Source: Bacteroidota bacterium (GTDB lineage Bacteria; Bacteroidota; Ignavibacteria; UBA10030; UBA6906). From it: a DNA stretch of 64,000 nt. This document shows positions 49,659-63,278 of the stretch, one piece after another (the stretch's first letter is position 1; every line of letters starts with the position of its first letter). Under the pieces are notes generated by a model, which searched no databases, was not told the origin of the DNA, and worked only from the letters and a program-made list of their open reading frames with translations. The translations under genes were made by a program, and so were the position numbers. Location: NCBI GenBank assembly GCA_019637975.1, contig JAHBUR010000003.1, positions 62,001 through 126,000 of the forward strand. The letters run 5' to 3'.

Positions 49659-49738
49659 ATTGCAATTCGTGCCGGCCTTCAGTAGATTTTCAGTTGAACA
49701 CCATCCTCATTGAATTCAATACATATTCAGGCAGAGTC

Positions 49739-51097
49739 ATGAACTATCAGGCAAGAATGTTTGCTGTTCTTTTCGCCATCTGTCTTGTTCTGGCGCCCGG
49801 CGTTGCGCAAGTAAACGGACAAGGAACTCTGGGAATCCAGGTAGACGTTGCCCGCTTCCGCGGAGATGACCTCCGCAGCTACGTGGAGGTGTACTACGCT
49901 TTTCCTCAACGGTCTCTGACATATACTCAGAGCCCCGAAGGTTTCAGGGGCGGGGTCGAGTTGCTCGTGGTCGTACGATCGAAGGACTCTATTCACTTTG
50001 CCGACCGTTTTGTGATGCCGCACGTGACACAAGATACGGTGGCGGGCAGCATGAATCTCGTCAGCTTGTCCGGAATGATGTTACCCGATGGCAACTATAC
50101 ATTGACTGTGTCAGGAAAGGATGTCAACAACCCGTCACGCAGCGACAGTGTGGCGGTACAGATTGCGGCCAGAGTACCGCCTGCGAACAATGTCGTCCTC
50201 AGCGATATCGAATTTGCATCCAACATCAAAAAAGGTGAAAAGGTCTCGCCGTTCTTCAAGAATACTCTCGAGGTAATCCCCAATGTCGACGGAGTGTTCG
50301 GCAACGGAAAGAACTGCTTCTTCTACGCCGAGGCGTACAACCTGCTTGCAAACAACGAAATGTCCGACTTGACATTGAGGACGACCGTATTGAATGCAAT
50401 CGGAAAAGAGGTGATTTCACGGGAACGCCCCCGCAAGCGGAGCGGTGAATCGACAGTGCTTGTGGACAATATCGACGTCTCAAATCTCACGAGTGGCACA
50501 TATACTCTAATGCTCTCCATCGACGATTCGAGCAAGAAGACCTTGACAACAAGCTGGAAAAAGTTCTTCGTCTTTAACGATGCAATGGGAATAGACTCAT
50601 CACTGCTTGCGCTGGATCCGACCCTGGCTGTGACGGCGTATTCCACAATGCAAGAGGCGGAACTTGATAATGAGTTCAAGCGTACGCGCTGGGAGGCTCG
50701 TGACATTGAGAAGGACCAGTATGCAAAGTTGAAGGGCGCTGAACCAAAGCGGAGATTCTTGGCGGATTTCTGGTCGAAACGCCCGGTCGGTGCCCGTGAA
50801 GTATATTTCCAACGTGTGAACGCCGCAAACTCGGCATACGCGAGCATGGGAATCGAGGGCTATCGCAGCGATCGCGGGAGAGTCCACATCACGTACGGTC
50901 CCCCGGACGACGTTGATCGCCATCCGAACGAGGCAGGAACAAAGCCGTATGAAATTTGGACGTATAACAATATTCAAGGCGGAGTGATTTTTGTTTTCGT
51001 TCAGCGCCAGAACAGCGGCGACTACGAGTTGATGCATTCAACTCACCGCAGCGAATTAAATGACGAAAACTGGATGCGCTACGCCCGCACAAATTGA
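49739..51097 (+). CDS. GWxTD-domain secreted protein
   Basis: 452 residues from the ATG at 49739, which opens a signal peptide (ARMFAVLFAICLVLAPGVAQ); the longer frame upstream overlaps yjbQ and is not used. The C-terminal part (from about 310) has the family's elements: helical ELDNEFKRTRWEA, then GYRSDRGRVHITYGPPDDVD and KPYEIWTYNN. GWxTD proteins occur mainly in Bacteroidota-related and Acidobacteria-type genomes and have no known reaction. A terminator follows. Confidence 0.88.
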   Translation: MNYQARMFAVLFAICLVLAPGVAQVNGQGTLGIQVDVARFRGDDLRSYVEVYYAFPQRSLTYTQSPEGFRGGVELLVVVRSKDSIHFADRFVMPHVTQDTVAGSMNLVSLSGMMLPDGNYTLTVSGKDVNNPSRSDSVAVQIAARVPPANNVVLSDIEFASNIKKGEKVSPFFKNTLEVIPNVDGVFGNGKNCFFYAEAYNLLANNEMSDLTLRTTVLNAIGKEVISRERPRKRSGESTVLVDNIDVSNLTSGTYTLMLSIDDSSKKTLTTSWKKFFVFNDAMGIDSSLLALDPTLAVTAYSTMQEAELDNEFKRTRWEARDIEKDQYAKLKGAEPKRRFLADFWSKRPVGAREVYFQRVNAANSAYASMGIEGYRSDRGRVHITYGPPDDVDRHPNEAGTKPYEIWTYNNIQGGVIFVFVQRQNSGDYELMHSTHRSELNDENWMRYARTN

Positions 51098-51119
51098 GCA
51101 TGAGGGGAACGTGATGCTT

Positions 51120-51150
51120 GAAGCCGCCCGATGAAGGCGGCTTCTTTGTT
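51120..51150 (+). terminator. Intrinsic terminator after the GWxTD gene
   Basis: GAAGCCGCC (51120-51128) pairs perfectly with GGCGGCTTC (51136-51144) around a seven-base loop, followed by TTTGTT. Confidence 0.88.
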
Positions 51151-51168
51151 CCATGCAGATCGGTTAGA

Positions 51169-51197
51169 TTGTAACTTGGAATCGAATTATGTAAGTT
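51169..51197 (+). promoter_or_regulatory. Promoter for the acyltransferase-GT9-tsaC group
   Basis: TTGTAA (51169-51174), 17-base spacer, TAAGTT (51192-51197), about 13 bases after the terminator's T tract and 19 before the ATG, so the leader would be short. The -10 is imperfect. Confidence 0.4.
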
Positions 51198-51216
51198 AGC
51201 CCAAGCGTTTTCTTCC

Positions 51217-52128
51217 ATGAGAGAATACATCGAATATTTTCTGTTCAGTTGTGTTGATTGGCTTGCCCGGCGGTTGTCGTTCCGGTGGGCCGGAAAAATC
51301 GGAGCGTGGTTGGGCGGCGTTGTGTTTTCGGTAATCGGCTATCGCAAAGAAATCACACTCGACAACCTGAGAAAGGCCTTCCCGGAAAAGCATGAAGAGG
51401 ACCTGCAAGTAATTGCGCGCCGCGCGTACAGGAACTACGGCATCGCGTTGGTTGAATCATTGTGGGCAAGCGGCCAGTCTGCCGAGGAGTTGAGGAAGAT
51501 CGTCCGCGCGACAAATCCCGAAATAGTGCATAATGCCAGGAAGGCCGGGAAAGGCGTCCTGCTTCTCTCGGCTCACTTCGGCTCGTGGGAGTTTCTTTCG
51601 ACAAGTGTACCGCTTGTTCTGGAGCTCCCGTTCGGGATGATTGCTCAGCGTCAGCGTAACAAGCATATCGATGCCTTGTTTGAAACAAATAGGTCCCGTT
51701 TTGGGAATTTCATCATCGGCATGGGAACATCGACTCGCAAAGTGCTAAAGGCGCTTGCAGACAACCACGTTGTCTTGATACTCGGCGATCAAAGCGGGCC
51801 AAAAGAAGCCGTGTTTGTCGAGTTCTTCGGTCGTCCCTCGGCAACGCACAGAGGCGCTGCCGCATTCAGTCTCAAAACAGGGGCTCCGATTGTAATGGGC
51901 GTTCTCGTCCGGCAACCGGACGGGACGTACACAATCACGTTCGAAGAAGTAGATCAAAGCGGATTGGATTCGTCGTCTGAAGAAGACATCACGAAACTGA
52001 CCCAACGTCACGTGGCGATTCTTGAACGATGGATTCGCACCAACCCGGACCATTGGTTGTGGATGCACAAACGTTGGAAACACACACCGTTCTTTCAGGC
52101 CCGGCAAGAAGTTGAGGAGGTTCGTTAG
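51217..52128 (+). CDS. LpxL/HtrB-family lysophospholipid/lipid A acyltransferase
   Basis: 303 residues. A hydrophobic/amphipathic N-terminus precedes the acyltransferase core with SAHFGSWEF (H-x4-E catalytic motif), LGDQSGPKEAVFVEFFGRPSATHRGAAAF and GAPIVMGVLV. It would add a secondary acyl chain to lipid A or a related lipid at the inner membrane. Next comes a GT9 heptosyltransferase-like gene sharing one base, so an LPS-assembly function is likely. Confidence 0.92.
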   Translation: MREYIEYFLFSCVDWLARRLSFRWAGKIGAWLGGVVFSVIGYRKEITLDNLRKAFPEKHEEDLQVIARRAYRNYGIALVESLWASGQSAEELRKIVRATNPEIVHNARKAGKGVLLLSAHFGSWEFLSTSVPLVLELPFGMIAQRQRNKHIDALFETNRSRFGNFIIGMGTSTRKVLKALADNHVVLILGDQSGPKEAVFVEFFGRPSATHRGAAAFSLKTGAPIVMGVLVRQPDGTYTITFEEVDQSGLDSSSEEDITKLTQRHVAILERWIRTNPDHWLWMHKRWKHTPFFQARQEVEEVR

Positions 52129-53183
52129 TGCAGACTCCCGGACGAATTCTCGTCGTTCAAACAGCGTTTACGGGGGATGTGGTACTGACATTACCGCTCA
52201 TCCAGCACCTGCATGAAACGTTGAACGGAGTGTTCATCGATGTTGTTGCCGTGCCCGCCGCCGCACAGGTTCTCCGCGGACATCCGGCGATTAACAAAAT
52301 AATCGAGTATGACAAGAAGGGTAGACAGAAAGGCCCCGCCGCTGCGTATTCGCTTGTTCGCCATTTGCAGGAATCGCAATACGGTGTTGCTATTGTGCCG
52401 CATCGATCGATACGGAGTGCGGCGATATGCTATTTTGCCGGCATACCCCGCAGGATCGGTTTCTCAACAAGCTCGGGTAGATTTCTTTTCACCGATATTG
52501 TGCCGTATCAAAAAGAGGCGCACGAGGTTTTGCGGAACCTGAGTCTGGCAGAACCCTTGGATGTGTATCCGAACGATGATCTGCTGCCCCGCCTGTATCC
52601 CTCGGATGATGATAAGCGGGCAGTCGAGGCGTTGCTGGGTTTGAAACCTTCCGCGAGAGACAGTTCGATAGTGGCCATAGCCCCGGGTTCAGTGTGGGCA
52701 ACGAAACGCTGGCTGCCGGAGCGATATGCCGAGTTGACCGGGCGACTCATCCGTGAAGGATTATTTGTTGTCTTGATTGGGGGAGAAGAAGATCTTTCCG
52801 TCGGCAACATGATTCTGTCAGGTGTTCAGAGTGACCGGGTTCTCAATGCGATGGGGAAGTTGACTCTTCTTCAGTCTGCAGAAATGATTGGCCGCTGCAA
52901 AATTGCGGTCACGAATGACAGTTCGCCCATGCACTTTGCCGTTGCGATGCGGACTCCGGTTGTCGCTATCTTCGGCGCAACAGTTCCCGAATTCGGTTTT
53001 GCGCCAATCGGGTCACGTGACGAGATTGTCCAAACCTCGGGGCTGGATTGCCGTCCATGCGCGATCCACGGCGGGAACTCGTGCCCCGTCAAGACGTTTG
53101 TGTGTATGAAGAACATTACCGTTGAGGCTGTTCTCGGCAAGGTACACACCGTTCTCTCAAAGACAGGAGTGGAAGTCGCGTGA
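52128..53183 (+). CDS. GT9-family heptosyltransferase-like protein
   Basis: 351 residues from GTG at 52128, one base inside the previous stop. RILVVQTAFTGDVVLTLPLIQHL is the N-terminal GT9 entry; residues near 185 read AIAPGSVWATKRWLPERYAEL, and the donor site TNDSSPMHFAVAMRTPVVAIFG is typical of WaaF/WaaC. It likely transfers a heptose or other sugar to the lipopolysaccharide core. The ending CPVKTFVCMKNIT has the Cys-rich segment common in WaaF. The exact donor is not fixed by sequence. Confidence 0.92.
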   Translation: MQTPGRILVVQTAFTGDVVLTLPLIQHLHETLNGVFIDVVAVPAAAQVLRGHPAINKIIEYDKKGRQKGPAAAYSLVRHLQESQYGVAIVPHRSIRSAAICYFAGIPRRIGFSTSSGRFLFTDIVPYQKEAHEVLRNLSLAEPLDVYPNDDLLPRLYPSDDDKRAVEALLGLKPSARDSSIVAIAPGSVWATKRWLPERYAELTGRLIREGLFVVLIGGEEDLSVGNMILSGVQSDRVLNAMGKLTLLQSAEMIGRCKIAVTNDSSPMHFAVAMRTPVVAIFGATVPEFGFAPIGSRDEIVQTSGLDCRPCAIHGGNSCPVKTFVCMKNITVEAVLGKVHTVLSKTGVEVA

Positions 53184-53824
53184 ACCGGATTCTGAGCGTG
53201 TCGTATGATGTTCCCGAACATGAAGTACTGGATGATGCTGCAACGGTTGTGTTGAATGGCGGAGTGATTGTGTATCCGACCGAAACCCTCTATGGCATTG
53301 GTGCAGATGCCACCAACGCGACTGCTATTAGGAATGTTGTAAAGGCAAAAAGGAGAAGTGACGAAAGGCCGATTCTCGTTATCATCCATTCACGTGACCT
53401 GCTAAAGAACCTTGTTGCCGGCATACCGGACTTTGCGGAACAATTGATGCAGCACTTCTGGCCCGGGCCTCTCACGCTTGTCTTCAAGTCTGCTCACGGC
53501 GTGCCACCCGAACTCACGCGAGGTAGCGGAACAATAGGTGTTCGTATTCCTTCCAACACATTCTGCCTGGAACTTCTGACACGATGTAACCGTCCTCTCA
53601 CCTCAACGAGCGCCAACATCTCCGGGGAGCCTGTGCATCGGACTGTTGACGAGATCCGCCTTGTTATGACTGATGGAATTGATTTGTATATCGACGCCGG
53701 CAGGTTACCCGAAAGCAAGCCATCAACCGTTGTATCTGTTGTTGGAAAGAAGCCAAAACTCTTACGTGAAGGAGTCATTCCATTTGATGTACTTCAAGAA
53801 GTTCTTCCGGCCATTGAGATGTAA
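53180..53824 (+). CDS. tsaC: L-threonylcarbamoyladenylate synthase (TsaC/Sua5/YrdC)
   Basis: 214 residues from GTG at 53180, overlapping the GT9 gene by four bases. GGVIVYPTETLYGIGADATN, KRRSDERPILVIIH, and STSANISGEPV are the YrdC signatures. It makes threonylcarbamoyl-AMP for the t6A37 tRNA modification. It is the short YrdC form without the Sua5 C-terminal domain. It is translationally coupled to lipid-envelope genes, so it is likely co-transcribed by chance of operon layout. Confidence 0.94.
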   Translation: MNRILSVSYDVPEHEVLDDAATVVLNGGVIVYPTETLYGIGADATNATAIRNVVKAKRRSDERPILVIIHSRDLLKNLVAGIPDFAEQLMQHFWPGPLTLVFKSAHGVPPELTRGSGTIGVRIPSNTFCLELLTRCNRPLTSTSANISGEPVHRTVDEIRLVMTDGIDLYIDAGRLPESKPSTVVSVVGKKPKLLREGVIPFDVLQEVLPAIEM

Positions 53825-53825
53825 T

Positions 53826-56173
53826 ATGTCCGTCACGCACGCTTTTCTCTGTTTTTTGCTGTCCGGCAATGTGATATTTGCCCGACAATCCTCAGAACTC
53901 CGGCAGGCATTCCTTGATCTTTCGAACGACGCCGTTGTCATGAATATCTCCGCTCATCCGGACGATGAAGATGGTTCTACGCTCGCCTATTACCGGATGA
54001 AGTATGGCGTGAAGACGTATTCTGTTCTGTTCACACGGGGCGAGGGTGGACAAAATGAAACAGGGCCGGAATTGTACGAAGAACTCGGCGTTTTGCGTAC
54101 CGACGAGACGCACGAAGCCGGAACGATACTCGGGGCGGAGGTTCATTTTTTGAACCTGAGCGATTTCGGATACTCCAAAACGGCGTCCGAAACATTTCAG
54201 AAATGGGGAGGCGCAAAGGAGGTGTTGCGCAGATTGGTGTATGTGATTCGGAAGTACAAGCCGGATGTTCTCTTCACAAACCACAACACAATCGGCGGCC
54301 ACGGTCACCACCAGGCCGTAGCCATTACTGCTATCGCAGCGTTCGATGCCGCAGCGGATTCAACAATGTTTCCTGAGCAACTTCAACTTCCGGGAATGGC
54401 TTGCTGGCAGCCGAAGAAATTGTTCTTCAGAAATTTCGGGGCGGCTGATCAGACTGCAGATGTTGTGAATCAAATTGGCGAAACAGATCCGGCGAGCGGA
54501 TTATCGTATCTCGACATAGCGTCGGAGGCGCTGACCCGACACAAGACACAGGGCATGGACAGGGCCGATTTGCGTCGCTTCACACGAGGGCTCAGTTTGT
54601 ACAGGCTGATCCGGGCCAACAGCATGTATGTCCGGGACACAACAACCTTTCTCGGCGGGGTTGATGTGTGGCGTGATCCGGGATTGACTCCGTTGCAGAA
54701 CAGCAGGGCAGTATTGTCGCGGCTGCATCACGGAATGAGTCGGGATTCGGTGTTGGAAATCGCTTCGCAGATCATGCGATTCAGCACTCGCAAAATGCAA
54801 TTGAGCCCTCTTGCGCACCGTGTCCTTTCCCGCTGGCAGGAGGGGCTCGAAGCACTTGTCATTCAACTTTGCGCTATCCAGGCAACATGGGAGTTTGCCG
54901 ACCAGGTGGTTGTCCCGACACAGAAAGTGAAGAGTACGCTTACTCTGAGCGCTTCAGAATGTGTGTTGAGCGAGTTTCGTTACTCGGTAACAGTTCCACA
55001 AGGTTGGGCAGTCAATGAGAGTGCAGAAGTTGTTCCTGTTCCCCACAAAGGAGTATTGACAAGGGGCTACGACGTATTTGTGGGCGATAACGCTACTCTC
55101 ACACTTCCCAAAACAGTAGCCCAGTACAATTCGCTTGAATCGGAACAGACTGTGGCGTTGCACGCGCATGTTCTTGCAAACGGAAAACCGCTCACACTGA
55201 CAGTGCGGCCTCGATTTGACGTTGCGCCGTTTCAGGTGATGAATGTGACTCCGAATGTAGCGCGTTTTTCGCCGGATGATGCACAAGGGGGAAAAGGTTC
55301 TCGTTTTCACTGACCAATTATGCACCGCGAAAATCCGCGGGCAGAATTTCGGTTCAGATGCCTCCGGGGTGGCTTTCGGAACGGGCTTCGTACGTAATTC
55401 AAGGGGAAGACAGTTCGGCAACCGGCCAGTTGACGATTCAACCCCCAAAAAACGTGAAGCCGGGTGTTTATCAACTGCGAGTCAAATCAGAATATGCGTG
55501 GAACGACATAACAGCAAAAGTGTTTGATGTGAGAGTGGAGAAGAGCATTACGGTCGGCATTATCAAAAGCTACGATACCACGCTCGAGACTGCTTGCGAA
55601 GAACTGGGTCTGAGCTACAAGCTGCTCGGCCCGGCAGATCTTGAACGGGATATTTCGTCTTTCACGTCAATTATTGTTGACATTCGTGCGTATCTCGTTC
55701 GTGAAGATTTGAAGAAGAACAACCATCGCCTTCTTGACTACGTTCACAAGGGGGGACATCTCGTGGTGATGTACCACAAGGATCAGGAGTGGAAGCCGGA
55801 GTACGCACCGTTTCCGATCAAGTTGAGTCGCCGACGTGTCACCATTGAAGAGGCTCCGGTCCAAGTTCTGCAACCGGCGCACCCTCTCTTCAATCATCCT
55901 AACACCATATCGGAGGGAGATTGGGAGGATTGGATTCAAGAACGTGGAGTGTATTTTCCGGGCGAAGTGGCAAAAGAATACGTTCACCTCATTTCTTCAA
56001 ACGATCCTGACGAGCCGCCGCTCACAACCGGATATCTGCTTGCAAGCCACGGGGCGGGGTCATATATCTATACGTCATACGTTTGGTATCGCCAACTTAA
56101 GGAGTTCAATGCCGGTGCCTTCCGGTGTTTTGTGAATATGATTTCTTACCCAAAATACCGCTCAACACCGTGA
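53826..56173 (+). CDS. Large PIG-L deacetylase, frameshifted near 55289-55297
   Basis: ATG at 53826, two bases after the tsaC stop, then a signal-like stretch (AFLCFLLSGNVIFA). The PIG-L domain has ISAHPDDEDGSTLA and a later HGHHQAVA that complete the zinc site. The frame ends at 55313, but the adjacent frame continues as FSLTNYAPRKSAGRISVQMP and runs to 56173 with a beta-sandwich and a glutamine-amidotransferase-like end. One added base in GGGGGAAAA (55289-55297) would join both into about 782 residues. It likely removes an N-acetyl group from a sugar outside the cytoplasm; the substrate is unknown. The stop overlaps the ABC binding-protein gene. Confidence 0.82.
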
Positions 56174-57261
56174 GAACACAAAGCCGCAGACTGAAGTGGA
56201 AAGAACCGGAGTTCCGATCGTTGGCCGCGGTAATTGCATGTACGCTGTACTTTGCCGTTCTGCTTGTCCCCGTTGGCGGCTGTTCAACGGACACCGGCAA
56301 GCGGAAGCTTGTTGTGTATTCTCCGCACGGGAAAGAAATGCTTTCGGCTTTCGAAAAGCAATTTGAAGCCCGCTATCCTGATGTTGACGTACAATGGCTC
56401 GACATGGGCTCGCAGGATGTCTATGATCGGGTTCGGACAGAGAAAGTGAACCCCCAAGCCGATATCTGGTGGGGCGCTCCGCTTACAACATTTGCGAAAG
56501 CCGAGGCCGAGAGTCTTCTCGAACAGTACACGCCAAGCTGGGCTGAGTTTGTTGAAGCAGAGATGAAAAGCCACGCCGGTTTCTGGTACGGAACGTTTGC
56601 AACTCCCGAAGTGATTATGTACAACAATCGCCTCGTGCATGAGGAGGAAGCTCCCCGGGATTGGGATGATTTGCTCCACCCCAAATGGCGGAACAAGATC
56701 ATCATCCGGAATCCTGTAGCATCGGGAACCATGCGGGTCATCTTTTCGGCAATCATTCAGCGGGAAGCAGCCCGAACGGGGGATCCTGACGCCGGGTTCG
56801 CGTGGCTCCGCAGACTCGATGCAAACACGAAAACATACGCGGCTGATCCGACGCAGTTGTATTTGAAGATTGCGCGAGAGGAGGGACTTGTATCCCTTTG
56901 GAACCTGCCTGATGTCGTGCTGCAGAAGGAAACCAATGGCTACCCGTTCGGCTGGAATATTCCTGTGAGCGGAACTCCCCTTATCACGGATTGCATCGCT
57001 ATTGTGCGCGGAACGAAGAACCGGGCTGATGCTGAACTGTTCTATGAATTCGTCACTTCGAGGGATGCAATGATTCAGCAGGCTTCCGAATTCTTCCGCA
57101 TTCCCGCCCGGACCGATATTCTTCGGGATGACTTGCCTGATTGGATCAGAAGTTTGAATTTCGTCACGATGAAACTCAATTGGCAGGAAATCGAAGCACA
57201 GGAAAGAGCCTGGATGAGAAAATGGGATGAAGAAGTGAAAGGCAAGGGAATATCACATTGA
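56170..57261 (+). CDS. Periplasmic ABC substrate-binding lipoprotein (iron(III)-type)
   Basis: 363 residues from GTG at 56170, overlapping the PIG-L gene stop (GTGA). A lipobox LLVPVGGC follows a hydrophobic stretch. The mature protein has the type II binding fold of the iron(III)/2-aminoethylphosphonate group (KLVVYSPHGKEMLSAFEKQF, then PQADIWWGAPLTTFAKA, EVIMYNNRLV). With the two following genes it forms a complete importer. Iron is the best guess from the family; other small anions are possible. Confidence 0.87.
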   Translation: MRTQSRRLKWKEPEFRSLAAVIACTLYFAVLLVPVGGCSTDTGKRKLVVYSPHGKEMLSAFEKQFEARYPDVDVQWLDMGSQDVYDRVRTEKVNPQADIWWGAPLTTFAKAEAESLLEQYTPSWAEFVEAEMKSHAGFWYGTFATPEVIMYNNRLVHEEEAPRDWDDLLHPKWRNKIIIRNPVASGTMRVIFSAIIQREAARTGDPDAGFAWLRRLDANTKTYAADPTQLYLKIAREEGLVSLWNLPDVVLQKETNGYPFGWNIPVSGTPLITDCIAIVRGTKNRADAELFYEFVTSRDAMIQQASEFFRIPARTDILRDDLPDWIRSLNFVTMKLNWQEIEAQERAWMRKWDEEVKGKGISH

Positions 57262-57300
57262 ACGCGAAATAACCACTATTCATCTCCACAAGTCAACTCT

Positions 57301-58359
57301 GTGTCCCGAATATCGCTTCATAACATTTCCCGGCAATTCGACGATACTCTTGCAGTTCACGATGTGAGTCTTGAGATTGCATCCGGCGAGTTCTTTTCAA
57401 TTCTGGGACCGAGCGGATGCGGCAAGACGACACTCCTTCGCATGATTGCCGGTTTCGAGCGGCCGACTTCCGGTACCATCTCCTTTGACGCAAGCGACGT
57501 GACACATGTTCCGACGCAATACCGCGGAGTGGGGATGGTGTTTCAGAACTATGCGTTGTTTCCTCACATGACGGTGTTCGAGAATGTCGCCTTCGGACTC
57601 GAAACAAAGAGGATGGAGAGAAGGGCCATAAGGAAACGGGTTGAAGAAATTCTCGATTCAGTACATTTGTCGGGGAAGATCGATGTTCCCGTCCCTTTGT
57701 TGAGCGGGGGGGAACAGCAGCGTGTGGCGGTGGCCAGGGCAGTTGTTGTTGAGCCTGCCGTGCTGCTGATGGACGAGCCGTTAAGCAACCTTGATGTGGC
57801 ACTGCGGCTGAAAACGCGGGAGGAAATACGCCTGCTGCAGAAAAAAACCGGCATAACAACTGTGTACGTGACTCACGATCAATCGGAAGCCATGAGTCTC
57901 TCCGACAGAATTGCGGTAATGCGCTCCGGAACGATTGAGCAGGTCGGGGCACCTGCGCAAATGTATGAAGCCCCGGTGTCTGCTTTCGTCGCCGAATTTT
58001 TGGGAGGAGCAAATGTTCTCCCCGCAACAGTATCTCGTTCCGAACTGACAATTACAGCCGGCAAACTTGTGCTGCACGTTCCTGCAACGTTTTTGGATAG
58101 ATATGGAGATGGGGATGCGAGGCTGGTGGTGAGGCCGGAAGCAATCGTGCTATTGCCATCGGTTGGTGAAGGAGATAACGCGGCCCTGATTGTCCATAAA
58201 GAGTATCTCGGATTCACGACGAACTTTTTTGCACAAGTTGGAGAGGTGACCCTGCGTATCACGTCAATGACTTCCGGGCTGACGAAACGCCTTCGTTCCG
58301 GCGATGTGGCCGGCATCCGGTTCGATCTGTCGCGCTGTACAGTACTTCCTCATGACTGA
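57301..58359 (+). CDS. ABC transporter ATPase (iron(III)/spermidine type)
   Basis: 352 residues from GTG at 57301. Walker A GPSGCGKTT, Q-loop MVFQNYALFPHMT, signature LLSGGEQQRVAVARA, Walker B VLLMDEPLSNLD, and H-loop VTHDQSEAMSLSDR. Residues about 270-352 form a TOBE-like domain, as in FbpC and PotA. It powers import through the fused permease that starts six bases later. Confidence 0.95.
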   Translation: MSRISLHNISRQFDDTLAVHDVSLEIASGEFFSILGPSGCGKTTLLRMIAGFERPTSGTISFDASDVTHVPTQYRGVGMVFQNYALFPHMTVFENVAFGLETKRMERRAIRKRVEEILDSVHLSGKIDVPVPLLSGGEQQRVAVARAVVVEPAVLLMDEPLSNLDVALRLKTREEIRLLQKKTGITTVYVTHDQSEAMSLSDRIAVMRSGTIEQVGAPAQMYEAPVSAFVAEFLGGANVLPATVSRSELTITAGKLVLHVPATFLDRYGDGDARLVVRPEAIVLLPSVGEGDNAALIVHKEYLGFTTNFFAQVGEVTLRITSMTSGLTKRLRSGDVAGIRFDLSRCTVLPHD

Positions 58360-58365
58360 CGCCGC

Positions 58366-60063
58366 ATGAACAGCTTCGCAGTCAAACGATTGATTCCGGT
58401 TCTGTTGCTCGGAGCCGTGTACGTGGGATACGTTATTTACCCGCTGACAGAAACCCTCCGTGAAAGCGTGAATATCGGCGGTGCCTTCAGCGTGGCAAAC
58501 TACATCAATATTCTCAGCCCGGGCAATTCGGCGAACTTCGAAGCATTGTGGAATTCTATTGTTGTTTCGATTCTCTCTGTGTTGTTCAGCGGAATTCTGG
58601 GAACCTTTCTTGCATTTGTCCTGACGCAATTCACGTTTCCGTTGCAGCGGTTGTTGACCGGGCTTGCGGTTCTTCCCATTGCGTTGCCTCCGCTTGTAGG
58701 GGTGATCGCATTTCTTTTTGCGTTCGGAGAATCCGGAATTCTCCCCCGGATTGCGCAGGAAGTATCCGGCATGAACGGAAATGTATTCGCGTTGGAGGGA
58801 TTCAGCGCCATTGTTGCCGTGCACACATATTCATTCTATGTCTACTTCTACCTTTTTGTCTCAACAACGCTGCGTCAACTTGACGCGGCACAGCTTGAGG
58901 CGGCGCAAACGCTCGGAAGTACGACGCTTCGAACACTCAGAGCGGTTGTTCTGCCAGAATTGAAACCTGCTTTGCTGGGCGCGGCAATCCTGACGTTCAT
59001 GGCCAGCATGGCATCATTCTCGGCTCCCCTGTTGTTTGGCGGCGACATGCGATTCATGACACTGCAAATCTACAATGCCAAACTCAACGGGGAACTTGAT
59101 GTTGCGGCATCCCATTCAGTGGTTCTTGCCGCCGTCTCAATCACCTTCTACATCCTTCTCAAGATCGTCACTCCGCGTACATCGGGCGTTCGTCGGAGCA
59201 AGGGAACCGGAAGGAGCGGGTTGATATCACTGCCGATTCCGGTGCGCAGGGTATTGATAGCCTGTTGCATTGCATTGCTTGCGTTGGAGTTGCTGCCGAT
59301 AGCAATAATCATCCTGATTTCATTTGCCAAAGAAGGCTCGTGGACGTGGCAAATTCTGCCTGCAGCATACACGTCGGAAAACTACCATAAGCTTTTTGCC
59401 GATCCCCATGTGTTCGATCCGATCATCAACAGTTCGCTGATGAGTCTTGTTGCCGTGACAGCGTGTATTCTCGTCGGCGTCAGCATCTCGTATTTGCTTG
59501 TGAAAGGAAGCCTTCGACGTGTCAGGCATATCGGCGATGTTCTGGCGACTCTATCCTTTGCCATTCCCGGAACAGTCATCGCGCTCAGTCTCATTCTCGC
59601 ATTCAATTCGCCCGGCATATTTACCGCCCAGACTGTTCTGGTAGGAACGTTCTGGATATTGCCGTTAGCGTATTTCATTCGCATGTTCCCGTTTGTTGTT
59701 CGATCGACTTCAGCATCGTTGGATCAATTGGATGATTCCTTGCTTGAGGCGGGAGAATCGTTCGGTGCCGGGAGCTTCAGGCGGTTTCGAAAGATCGTAC
59801 TTCCCGGCATCTTGCCGGGCATAGTCGCTGGGGCTCTCCTGGTAATCATCACTGCCATTGGCGAGTTTGTTTCCTCTGTTCTTCTGTATACCTATTCCAA
59901 TCGACCTATTTCGGTAGAAATTCTCGCTCAAATGCGGACGTATAATTTCGGCGCGGCTGCCGCGTACTCGGTGTTTCTTCTGATTCTGGTCATGGTGCTT
60001 TCCGTTCTGGCGGGTCTTGTCGGTAGAGAGGAAAAATCCCATCCATCACCCGTCAATATTTAG
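58366..60063 (+). CDS. ABC transporter permease, two membrane domains fused
   Basis: 565 residues with about 12 transmembrane helices. Two EAA loops, the ATPase-contact sites, are visible: EAAQTLGSTTLRTLRAVVLP (about 185) and EAGESFGAGSFRRFRKIVLP (about 465). This duplicated layout is that of FbpB-type iron(III) permeases. A single gene thus supplies both halves of the channel. It ends just before the tRNA. Confidence 0.94.
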   Translation: MNSFAVKRLIPVLLLGAVYVGYVIYPLTETLRESVNIGGAFSVANYINILSPGNSANFEALWNSIVVSILSVLFSGILGTFLAFVLTQFTFPLQRLLTGLAVLPIALPPLVGVIAFLFAFGESGILPRIAQEVSGMNGNVFALEGFSAIVAVHTYSFYVYFYLFVSTTLRQLDAAQLEAAQTLGSTTLRTLRAVVLPELKPALLGAAILTFMASMASFSAPLLFGGDMRFMTLQIYNAKLNGELDVAASHSVVLAAVSITFYILLKIVTPRTSGVRRSKGTGRSGLISLPIPVRRVLIACCIALLALELLPIAIIILISFAKEGSWTWQILPAAYTSENYHKLFADPHVFDPIINSSLMSLVAVTACILVGVSISYLLVKGSLRRVRHIGDVLATLSFAIPGTVIALSLILAFNSPGIFTAQTVLVGTFWILPLAYFIRMFPFVVRSTSASLDQLDDSLLEAGESFGAGSFRRFRKIVLPGILPGIVAGALLVIITAIGEFVSSVLLYTYSNRPISVEILAQMRTYNFGAAAAYSVFLLILVMVLSVLAGLVGREEKSHPSPVNI

Positions 60064-60110: not shown

Positions 60111-60184
<74 letters not shown>

Positions 60185-60233
60185 CAAAGAATAACCATCT
60201 CATACATATTCCAGGAGGCAGTTCGTATTCGCC

Positions 60234-61124: not shown

Positions 61125-63278
61125 ATGAAGCTTCGTCGCATCATATATCTCGGTGTTTCAGCCTCGCTTCTTCTCTTCGTGTTTGTGATTGATGTGATGA
61201 GAAAGAACGTGGAGTTGAACGTCATCGGGCTCCCTCTCGTCCGGGATCTTCTCATTATTGCATCGTTTGTCCTGATCTACCTGTATCTTGAAGCGAGACA
61301 AGTGCATCGGGCGCTGACGCCGATCAAGCGCATTGGGTTGATGATGATCTACACGGTCATCACGGGGTTTGTCTGCTTTGTCATTGCCTTTATCTCCGAA
61401 GACAATTTCGATCAGAAGGACTTTGCCCTCATTCCGTTGACATACGGTCAGCTTTTTCTCGCGACATTCCTTTCGGTTCTTCTCGGCATCTTTGCGATTC
61501 TGATGTTCCGCCTTGCACGCGGATTGGTGCTGTTCAAACGCAAGCGGGGAACAGAACGGAACTTCACCATCTTCATCGGATTGGCGCTGGCAACAGCCGC
61601 CTCGACAATGACGCTTGAGCCTCTTGAGTACAGCTTGTTCACGAATATTCTTTTCGGTTTTGCGATCCTGTTTGCTGTACTCAACTCGTTCCGCCTTCCG
61701 TGGATTGTCTACCTGACAAAACGCGAGAAGATCTTCGGGTTGATTTACGGGCTGATCCTGTTTCTTGTTCTGATCGGGTTGAATGTCGGTGTCGGTATGG
61801 AACGCAGCCTGTTGGGGAAATCGCTGCTGTATCATTCGTACCCGCTCAGCCGCTTCATTCTGCTGACGACGATCTTCGCAAATATCTACTTTGGGATGGC
61901 GTTCATCAGCACGCTGTTCCATTTACCAACCGCGGAGGCGTTCGATAGAAAATCCACCGAGGTGACTTCGCTTCACAACCTGGGCAAGCTCGTAACGCAG
62001 GTGTTTGATTTCAATGAACTGGTCGAGACCGTAACATCAATGACGCTCCAGGTGTGCGAAGCACAAAGCTGCTGGCTTGAAATCATCCACCATGAACATG
62101 ACCAGGATCGCAACACATCCGGCCCAAAGGAGCTTGTTGTACTCAACGATGCGGGCGGGAAGTACTCTGTGCAGTTGGCAGGCATGAAGAACATTTCCCA
62201 ACTGGAAATCATTACGTTGCTGCCTGCCGGAGAGCGAACATTGCGTGACGAAGTGATCGAAGAACGAAAAGCCATTGTGGTTGACGACCTGGCGCGGGAT
62301 TCCCGGTTCCGACGCGTTGAAAAATCAAAAGCGCAAATTGGGTCGATGGTCGTGGTTCCGCTTGTTTCACACGCAGGATTGATCGGTGTTTTGTATGCCA
62401 CAAAGGAGAATGCCTACGGCTTTTTCAAGGATGATGTTGATGTGATTTCGGCATTTGCTGATCAGGCTACTGTGGCAATCGAAAACTCACGCCTCATCAA
62501 GAAGTCGATTGAGCGCGAGCGCCTGTTGCGCGAGATGACACTCGCCCAGGAAATTCAACGCAGACTGCTGCCGCAGTGCCTTCCTTCATACGCGGCAATG
62601 GACATTGATGCGAGTTCCATTCCTGCCTTCGAGGTGGGGGGCGACTATTACGATGTTGTTGAACTCGACGACAACAAATGCGGCATCGTCGTTGGCGATG
62701 TTTCGGGAAAGGGAGTGTCGGCGGCCTTCTACATGTCTGAAGTGAAAGGCATCTTTCAATCGCTCAGTCGTCTCTATCCCTCTCCCCGGGAATTCATGAT
62801 CAGGGCGAATGAAGCCCTCTCAAGCTCTATTGACAAACATTCTTTTGTTAGCTTAATTTATGCTGTTATCGACATGGCCAACGGCACGTTGACCTTAGCG
62901 CGTGCCGGGCATTGCCCGCTGTTGCACCTTTCGGGGGAGAACGCCGCCTACCTTCGTCCCGGCGGTATGGGACTCGGACTTTCGAACGGAACAGCATTTG
63001 CACAAAGTATCGAGGAGAGTACGATCCGACTCAACCCCGGGGATGTATGCGTGTTTTATACCGACGGCATCACCGAGGCGCGGCGGGGCGACGACGACGA
63101 ATACGGATATGATCGTTTGATGCATACAGTGATAAGTGCGAAACAGGAGGCCGTGTCGGCGCTCAAAGAACATATCCTGCACACGGTTCGGTCGCACGCC
63201 GACAAGCCGGAGAATGACGATGACATGACGGTGGTGGTGGTCAAATGGCGGGGTGGGGGTTCACAGAAGTCTGCATGA
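61125..63278 (+). CDS. Membrane-bound GAF-SpoIIE (PP2C) phosphatase, RsbU type
   Basis: 717 residues. The N-terminal part (about 1-260) has eight or so hydrophobic helices. A GAF domain spans about 290-450 (VDDLARDSRFRRVEKSKAQI, VVVPLVSHAGLIGVL). The C-terminal SpoIIE domain (about 490-710) has the PP2C metal motifs (VGGDYYDVVELDDN, GIVVGDVSGKGVSAAFYM, VFYTDGITEARRGDDDEYG, NDDDMTVVVV). It dephosphorylates a STAS antagonist, and the two next genes are a STAS protein and an RsbW-type kinase. Signal input is probably through the membrane and GAF parts. Confidence 0.93.
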   Translation: MKLRRIIYLGVSASLLLFVFVIDVMRKNVELNVIGLPLVRDLLIIASFVLIYLYLEARQVHRALTPIKRIGLMMIYTVITGFVCFVIAFISEDNFDQKDFALIPLTYGQLFLATFLSVLLGIFAILMFRLARGLVLFKRKRGTERNFTIFIGLALATAASTMTLEPLEYSLFTNILFGFAILFAVLNSFRLPWIVYLTKREKIFGLIYGLILFLVLIGLNVGVGMERSLLGKSLLYHSYPLSRFILLTTIFANIYFGMAFISTLFHLPTAEAFDRKSTEVTSLHNLGKLVTQVFDFNELVETVTSMTLQVCEAQSCWLEIIHHEHDQDRNTSGPKELVVLNDAGGKYSVQLAGMKNISQLEIITLLPAGERTLRDEVIEERKAIVVDDLARDSRFRRVEKSKAQIGSMVVVPLVSHAGLIGVLYATKENAYGFFKDDVDVISAFADQATVAIENSRLIKKSIERERLLREMTLAQEIQRRLLPQCLPSYAAMDIDASSIPAFEVGGDYYDVVELDDNKCGIVVGDVSGKGVSAAFYMSEVKGIFQSLSRLYPSPREFMIRANEALSSSIDKHSFVSLIYAVIDMANGTLTLARAGHCPLLHLSGENAAYLRPGGMGLGLSNGTAFAQSIEESTIRLNPGDVCVFYTDGITEARRGDDDEYGYDRLMHTVISAKQEAVSALKEHILHTVRSHADKPENDDDMTVVVVKWRGGGSQKSA

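Follow-up and report, generated by a model that had tools for sequence, protein, structure and literature searches.

The two halves of the system described here both have characterised relatives. On the enzyme side, archaeal diacetylchitobiose deacetylases have a PIG-L fold and deacetylate a small N-acetylglucosamine (GlcNAc) compound. The LmbE superfamily enzymes identified up to the date of a review (PMC4101496) act on N-acetyl- or N-acylglucosamine cores, and those of the thiol pathways, Mca/Bca and MshB/BshB, also have the PIG-L fold and its metal motif. On the transport side, AfuABC of Actinobacillus imports hexose and heptose phosphates, with H205, D206 and E229 as the sugar-coordinating motif of its binding protein according to PMC4546632, and P5PA, also from Actinobacillus, is a pyridoxal-phosphate binding protein (PMC8427247). 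Here, we analysed a stretch of 64,000 nucleotides (the window; positions 62,001 to 126,000 of contig JAHBUR010000003.1) from a Bacteroidota bacterium of the Ignavibacteria, in which a PIG-L deacetylase gene is followed on the forward strand by the genes of an ATP-binding cassette (ABC) importer, encoding a substrate-binding lipoprotein, an ATPase and a fused permease (53826-60063). An earlier note on this DNA had given this order, orientation and extent correctly, had called the importer iron-type and had proposed that the deacetylase processes something that the importer handles. We know of no PIG-L enzyme beside AfuABC.

We read the four genes as one uptake unit, in which extracellular de-acylation of an N-acylglucosamine conjugate would be coupled to import, a reading to which we give a probability of roughly 0.6. 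Outside the inner membrane, the PIG-L enzyme would hydrolyse the N-acyl bond, acetyl or aminoacyl, of such a conjugate, and the lipoprotein, the ATPase and the fused permease would then import the freed anionic glucosamine conjugate. What the data show directly is the gene order with its conservation, the catalytic motifs, the lack of the iron ligands to be expected and the unrelated permease that takes the importer's place beside the same enzyme; the reaction, the order of hydrolysis before import and the product as cargo are inferred. The cargo we favour is a glucosamine conjugate freed of its acyl group, which could be glucosamine-malate, a fragment of bacillithiol.

That the enzyme and the importer belong together is first seen in the relatives. 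In a set of 120 related genomes, the window's own genome among them, the binding protein is present in 19 genomes at 20 loci, and the deacetylase gene lies directly 5′ of it on the same strand at 19 of these 20. Of the 19 loci, three (in G005, G009 and G076) are cut by the end of the contig and show the deacetylase only partly; in the window and in G018 its frame is broken. At the twentieth locus (G006), the contig starts inside the binding-protein gene and a deacetylase lies at the end of another contig. The conserved order includes a second family with different flanks, and no genome among the 120 showed the orthologues of deacetylase and importer in unlinked places. The linkage is beyond chance, and this evidence is much stronger than the gene order in one window.

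The strongest argument that the importer carries what the enzyme releases, or a closely similar compound, comes from relatives in which the importer is replaced. We collected all deacetylase matches with E-values of 1e-64 to 1e-79 from genomes without the binding protein (L074-L082), and each of the nine has the gene of an unrelated APC amino-acid-type permease next to it downstream on the same strand, at distances of -14 to 387 bp. Among five more distant large PIG-L loci (L084-L088), which are a small part of the distant PIG-L matches, three are followed by an SSF symporter (L085-L087), another by a short open reading frame that matches no family, and the remaining one by neither. Across these loci, the deacetylase is therefore tied to uptake in general and not to one transporter.

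The pair is also found in other phyla. Genome contigs were searched with the binding-protein alignment, the best 80 of 343 loci were kept, and PIG-L genes were called with custom hidden Markov models. PIG-L was seen at 40 of these 80 loci, and at 27 of the 38 whose flanks are complete and which hold importer genes. At 11 of the 27 it lies upstream in the same orientation, at nine it is divergent and at seven it lies downstream. It is downstream in Acidobacteria and KSB1, upstream in Gemmatimonadota and divergent in Bacilli such as Heyndrickxia, Neobacillus and Kroppenstedtia. In the same scan, five loci of Rhodothermales/Bacteroidetes (L107, L112, L115, L118 and L121) have the binding protein beside a UvrD/PcrA-type helicase, with importer genes not seen in the sequence examined.

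The Bacilli units, of which 20 loci were read, are larger and come in two sets. The first consists of a lyase, the permease, the ATPase, the binding protein, often a ROK regulator, and PIG-L; the second of a ROK regulator, the binding protein, the ATPase, the permease, PIG-L, the lyase and a BadF-type kinase, sometimes with a creatininase-family gene (L208, L209, L213) or a second small PIG-L, the latter best matched by BshB2 (118.9 of 195 bits). There are exceptions: L214 has the binding protein without the rest, PIG-L was not seen at L207 and L218, and the regulator was not seen at some loci. The best models for the regulator are ROK glucokinase and NagC, and the only NCBIfam match of the kinase is NagK, at 109.9 of 370 bits. 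The lyase passes the ArgH cut-off (TIGR00838, 336.1 of 279.5 bits) and keeps the RND, TH and SSIMPQKRNP motifs of the argininosuccinate lyase superfamily, but the QEDK of true ArgH, which all 10 of the 10 ArgH proteins used as controls have, is replaced by (T/A/V)EDD in 32 of 32 unit lyases. In ArgH, this QEDK stretch contacts the arginine half of the substrate. The best PDB match of the lyase is 6rx8/6g3d; we take chain 6rx8 to be EDDS lyase, an enzyme of aminocarboxylate chelators. Because a fumarate-releasing lyase, a NagK-like kinase and PIG-L occur together, this gene set points to a glucosamine carrying a group that would leave as fumarate, malyl or aspartyl, and glucosamine-malate, the core of bacillithiol, would be the simplest known compound to fit it. 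Five Ignavibacteriota genomes were searched for an orthologue of the Bacilli-type lyase and gave none; what they contain are ArgH-like proteins at 29-34% and members that are more distant still.

The enzyme itself belongs to the PIG-L/LmbE-like family, with the AHPDDE motif and the two histidines of the metal motif invariant in 27 aligned relatives. A fold model made from the enzyme of an intact relative, with a mean predicted local distance difference test score (pLDDT) of 86.5, matches MshB best (Z 24.2), followed by LnmX, the diacetylchitobiose deacetylases (Z about 22) and BshB. Its best NCBIfam match is Mca (TIGR03446), at 55.6 bits for a cut-off of 277.15, and it also stays under the cut-offs of BshB1 (33.4 of 182.5) and BshB2 (26.2 of 195.25); a true BshB1 (286.1 of 182.5 bits) is encoded elsewhere in the genome, and its neighbours there told us nothing useful. 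A glucosamine compound is probably the substrate of the enzyme, which would remove an acyl group from it. Known Mca/Bca and MshB/BshB are single-domain and, as far as is known, cytoplasmic proteins, whereas the enzyme here has about 780-830 amino acids (aa), a signal-like N-terminus, from which alone we infer that it is secreted, and an extra C-terminal domain. This domain (residues 624-829) matches amidotransferase-like folds, with STM3548 at Z 17.4 and N-acetyl-(R)-beta-phenylalanine acylase at Z 14.8. The diacetylchitobiose deacetylases differ likewise in being single-domain, and no chitin-type genes were recognised beside the unit.

On the importer side, all NCBIfam equivalogs are missed. 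By sequence, the best solved relatives of the binding protein are AfuA (4r72, found with phmmer) and P5PA (the top match of the family profile), and iron binders score lower. The ligands of these two are glucose-6-phosphate and pyridoxal phosphate, respectively. P5PA is also the top Foldseek match of the predicted model (mean pLDDT 93.4), and identity in structural alignments is about 21-23%. By fold, FutA1, FbpA and the metal-citrate-binding MctA are as close to this model as AfuA, and because the iron binders tie with AfuA, the fold cannot decide between an iron and a non-iron ligand. In the alignment with AfuA, S37 corresponds to S81 (kept in 55 of 65 rows), T150 to T187 (62 of 65) and D206 to D248 (65 of 65), whereas H205 falls on P247 (58 Pro, 6 Ser and 1 Asn, with no His in 65) and E229 on I272. 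Of the sugar motif given in PMC4546632, only D206 is kept, and by this motif the binding protein is AfuA-like in sequence and yet no AfuA. The ring-binding H203 of P5PA (PMC8427247) aligns in the Pro247/Asp248 region, and P5PA has a different gene neighbourhood.

The alternative that survives best is an AfuA-like importer of sugar phosphates, or of phosphonates, with a deacetylase that would act on acetylated glycans outside the cell and release amino-sugar phosphates from them. It would account for AfuA, P5PA and VcA0625 as the best solved relatives, for the largely kept phosphate-site residues S81 and T187, and for the best NCBIfam matches of the ATPase (PhnT2, below cut-off) and the binding protein (PhnS2 and PhnS). 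We nevertheless consider it rather unlikely. The binding protein reaches only 108.8 of 392.75 bits with PhnS2 and 98.4 of 395.3 with PhnS, the histidine and the glutamate of the AfuA sugar motif are replaced, and it is not obvious what the lyase and NagK-like kinase that sit with the Bacilli relatives, a further difference from AfuABC, would do with a sugar that already carries a phosphate.

It is improbable that the genes are neighbours without a shared function, held together by conservation of the whole region or operon. The flanks of family f1 are indeed conserved too, with GWxTD, LpxL, GT9 and Sua5 upstream and TPR, SpoIIE and STAS downstream; at five f5 loci, on the other hand, only the four-gene unit is kept, Sua5 being upstream in two of the five. 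The genes upstream of the unit are as tightly packed as the unit itself: the Sua5/YrdC gene (53180..53824, forward strand, PF01300) stops at 53824, the deacetylase ATG is at 53826, and the genes further 5′ also overlap or abut, so tight packing alone is nothing special at this locus. Sua5 is probably on the same transcript as the unit, though no member of it. The tree of PIG-L proteins, in which the partial rows L060 and L039 and row L084 are long, unreliable branches, places the linked enzymes in several clades with unlinked ones in between, which rules out a single clade of linked enzymes. This might be expected of mere neighbours, and it follows that the pairing has either arisen more than once or been lost in many cases. 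What a conserved region leaves unexplained is that in other phyla the pair is kept in upstream, downstream or divergent arrangement, and that, beside nine orthologous deacetylases, a different transporter takes the position of the missing importer.

The earlier note's proposal that the importer takes up iron or another metal chelate, from which the deacetylase would remove the N-acyl group, is the least probable of all: it can call on the tie in fold with FutA1, FbpA and MctA and on the match of the Bacilli lyase to 6rx8, which we take to be EDDS lyase, but iron-binder sequence scores are well below those of AfuA and P5PA, the Tyr-Tyr pair of the ferric-binding protein 1y4t aligns with Pro247-Asp248 (Asp in 65 of 65 rows), no Fur-like site was found in the window with a 19-base consensus at up to 3 mismatches, which may not be the consensus of this phylum, and the ROK regulator and the NagK-like kinase suggest a sugar. 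An adjacent Tyr-Tyr in the C-terminal lobe provides the iron ligands of FbpA/FutA-type proteins. On residues, with no match to the Fur consensus used and with the fold neutral, we dropped the iron reading and with it the label iron-type; nor did we find any positive evidence for a chelator as substrate. Among the substrates that the earlier note had offered, the acetyl-sugar or non-iron branch fits best. Its central idea stands as far as the two parts belonging together is concerned (19 of 20 loci, the other phyla and the nine of nine APC replacements), not in its iron or chelator version.

In the window, the deacetylase gene is interrupted. The ancestral gene as a whole spans 53826-56173 on the forward strand. 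The frame opened at 53826 ends at 55313, and this first piece (53826..55313; PF02585 at 75.1 bits over a cut-off of 28.2) holds the signal-like N-terminal region, the entire PIG-L domain with its AHPDDE and HGHH motifs, and the start of a beta-sandwich. Coding resumes in another frame in a second piece (55286..56173), which contains the end of a NEW3-like region (PF10633 at 21.6 bits, slightly below the cut-off of 24.4) and the C-terminal amidotransferase-like domain. The overlap of the deacetylase stop with the lipoprotein GTG (GTGA), as previously described, is accordingly a property of the ancestral frame: the TGA at 56171-56173 belongs to the second piece and does not close the frame opened at 53826.

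The nearest relative, G001 of the same genus, has an unbroken deacetylase of 833 aa (L054), with 86% identity to the first piece and 88% between its C-terminal part and the second. A tblastn search with this protein placed residues 1-545 on 53673-55307 and residues 539-833 on 55286-56170, in different frames. The break lies on the forward strand at 55282..55307, a G- and A-rich run in which the alignment shows one base fewer than in G001 and the tblastn frames overlap at 55286-55307. Divergence between the window and G001 at codon positions 1 to 3 is 0.080, 0.059 and 0.279 before the break and 0.086, 0.056 and 0.332 after it; because this codon-periodic divergence is alike on both sides, either the frame was lost very recently or the assembly is wrong here. 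Since the frame is intact in G001 and in almost all of the other relatives, we do not favour programmed frameshifting at the G/A-rich run, which could slip. Two other copies are broken: L065 (G018) shows an internal loss and a frame change, and L213 (G146) consists of two open reading frames in one reading frame.

For the rest of the unit, the GTG start and the short spacings were confirmed. The AfuA-like lipoprotein gene (56170-57261, forward strand) has PF13416 and PF13343 over cut-off, and its Cys38 is invariant in 65 aligned rows. It is followed after 39 bp by the gene of the ATPase, with a TOBE domain (57301-58359, forward strand; PF00005 and PF08402 over cut-off), and this after 6 bp by that of the fused permease, with two BPD_transp_1 halves (58366-60063, forward strand; PF00528 in two stretches; best NCBIfam matches Mo_ABC_porter and PhnU2, below cut-offs). 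Around the unit, the genes of a GWxTD protein, an LpxL acyltransferase, a GT9 glycosyltransferase and Sua5 lie head to tail at 49736-53824, and a tRNA-Arg (CCG) gene lies immediately 3′ of the permease at 60111-60185. In relatives, a second SpoIIE-domain protein is found 3′ of the SpoIIE/STAS pair (L054:18407-20000 and L055:18156-19928), and G008 carries the whole neighbourhood twice on different contigs (L058, L059), by duplication or through mixed strains.

Within the reading of coupled de-acylation and import, we can tentatively propose a more specific version, possible though doubtful, namely a dedicated route for the salvage and breakdown of bacillithiol-type compounds. In such a route, a secreted LmbE-type amidase/deacetylase would free glucosamine-malate from bacillithiol, N-methyl-bacillithiol, their conjugates or GlcNAc-malate, and the AfuA-like importer would take it up. 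In Bacilli and some Acidobacteria, the relative of argininosuccinate lyase would split off fumarate, and in some Bacilli the NagK-like kinase would phosphorylate the glucosamine under a NagC-like regulator. In Ignavibacteriota, where the lyase was not found in the five genomes searched, the imported core could go straight to BshC, which they encode, and in sister lineages APC and SSF transporters would do the importer's job. According to PMC6282198, pathways for bacillithiol or N-methyl-bacillithiol exist in Ignavibacteriae, Acidobacteria, Gemmatimonadetes and Firmicutes, and these are lineages that have the importer. The window's own genome encodes BshB1 and BshC, and BshC is present in 18 of the 19 genomes reached through the loci. 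Ignoring kinship, the association of the binding protein with BshC is weak in Bacilli (n = 299), with BshC in 41 of 43 genomes that have the binding protein vs 205 of 256 that do not (p 0.008). Among genomes of the phylum to which G126 belongs (n = 297) it is stronger, with 24 of 24 vs 176 of 273 (p 5e-5), again ignoring kinship. For the control transporter family DctP there was no such enrichment (68 of 104). In the literature searched, we recognised no paper describing a cluster of this kind that imports or degrades bacillithiol. To our knowledge, no uptake and breakdown route for bacillithiol has been described.

Several observations weigh against these proposals. Co-occurrence with BshC carries no information within the window's own group, with 17 of 19 genomes vs 95 of 101 (p 0.89), because 112 of the 120 relatives carry BshC anyway. 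Outside this group kinship was left uncorrected, and several of the genomes compared look closely related. In two Bacilli genomes the binding protein occurs although BshC is missing: in G124 there is no PIG-L in its vicinity (L161), and in G146 the PIG-L is interrupted. At 11 of the 38 full-flank importer loci, many of them from Latescibacterota, no PIG-L is within reach, and at 40 of the best 80 of 343 loci none was seen in the DNA examined. The kept S81 and T187 fit a phosphorylated ligand too, and our reading gives the amidotransferase-like domain of the enzyme no role. Finally, the enzyme gene is broken in the window's own assembly; for the unit to work there, the break would have to be an error, of very recent date or bypassed.

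Our results suggest that, in several phyla, a large and presumably secreted glucosamine de-acylase is the partner of an importer that would be labelled as iron uptake. This pairing gives the importer a concrete, testable substrate class. If the bacillithiol version is true, the unit would be a means of taking up and degrading a bacterial thiol of very wide distribution.

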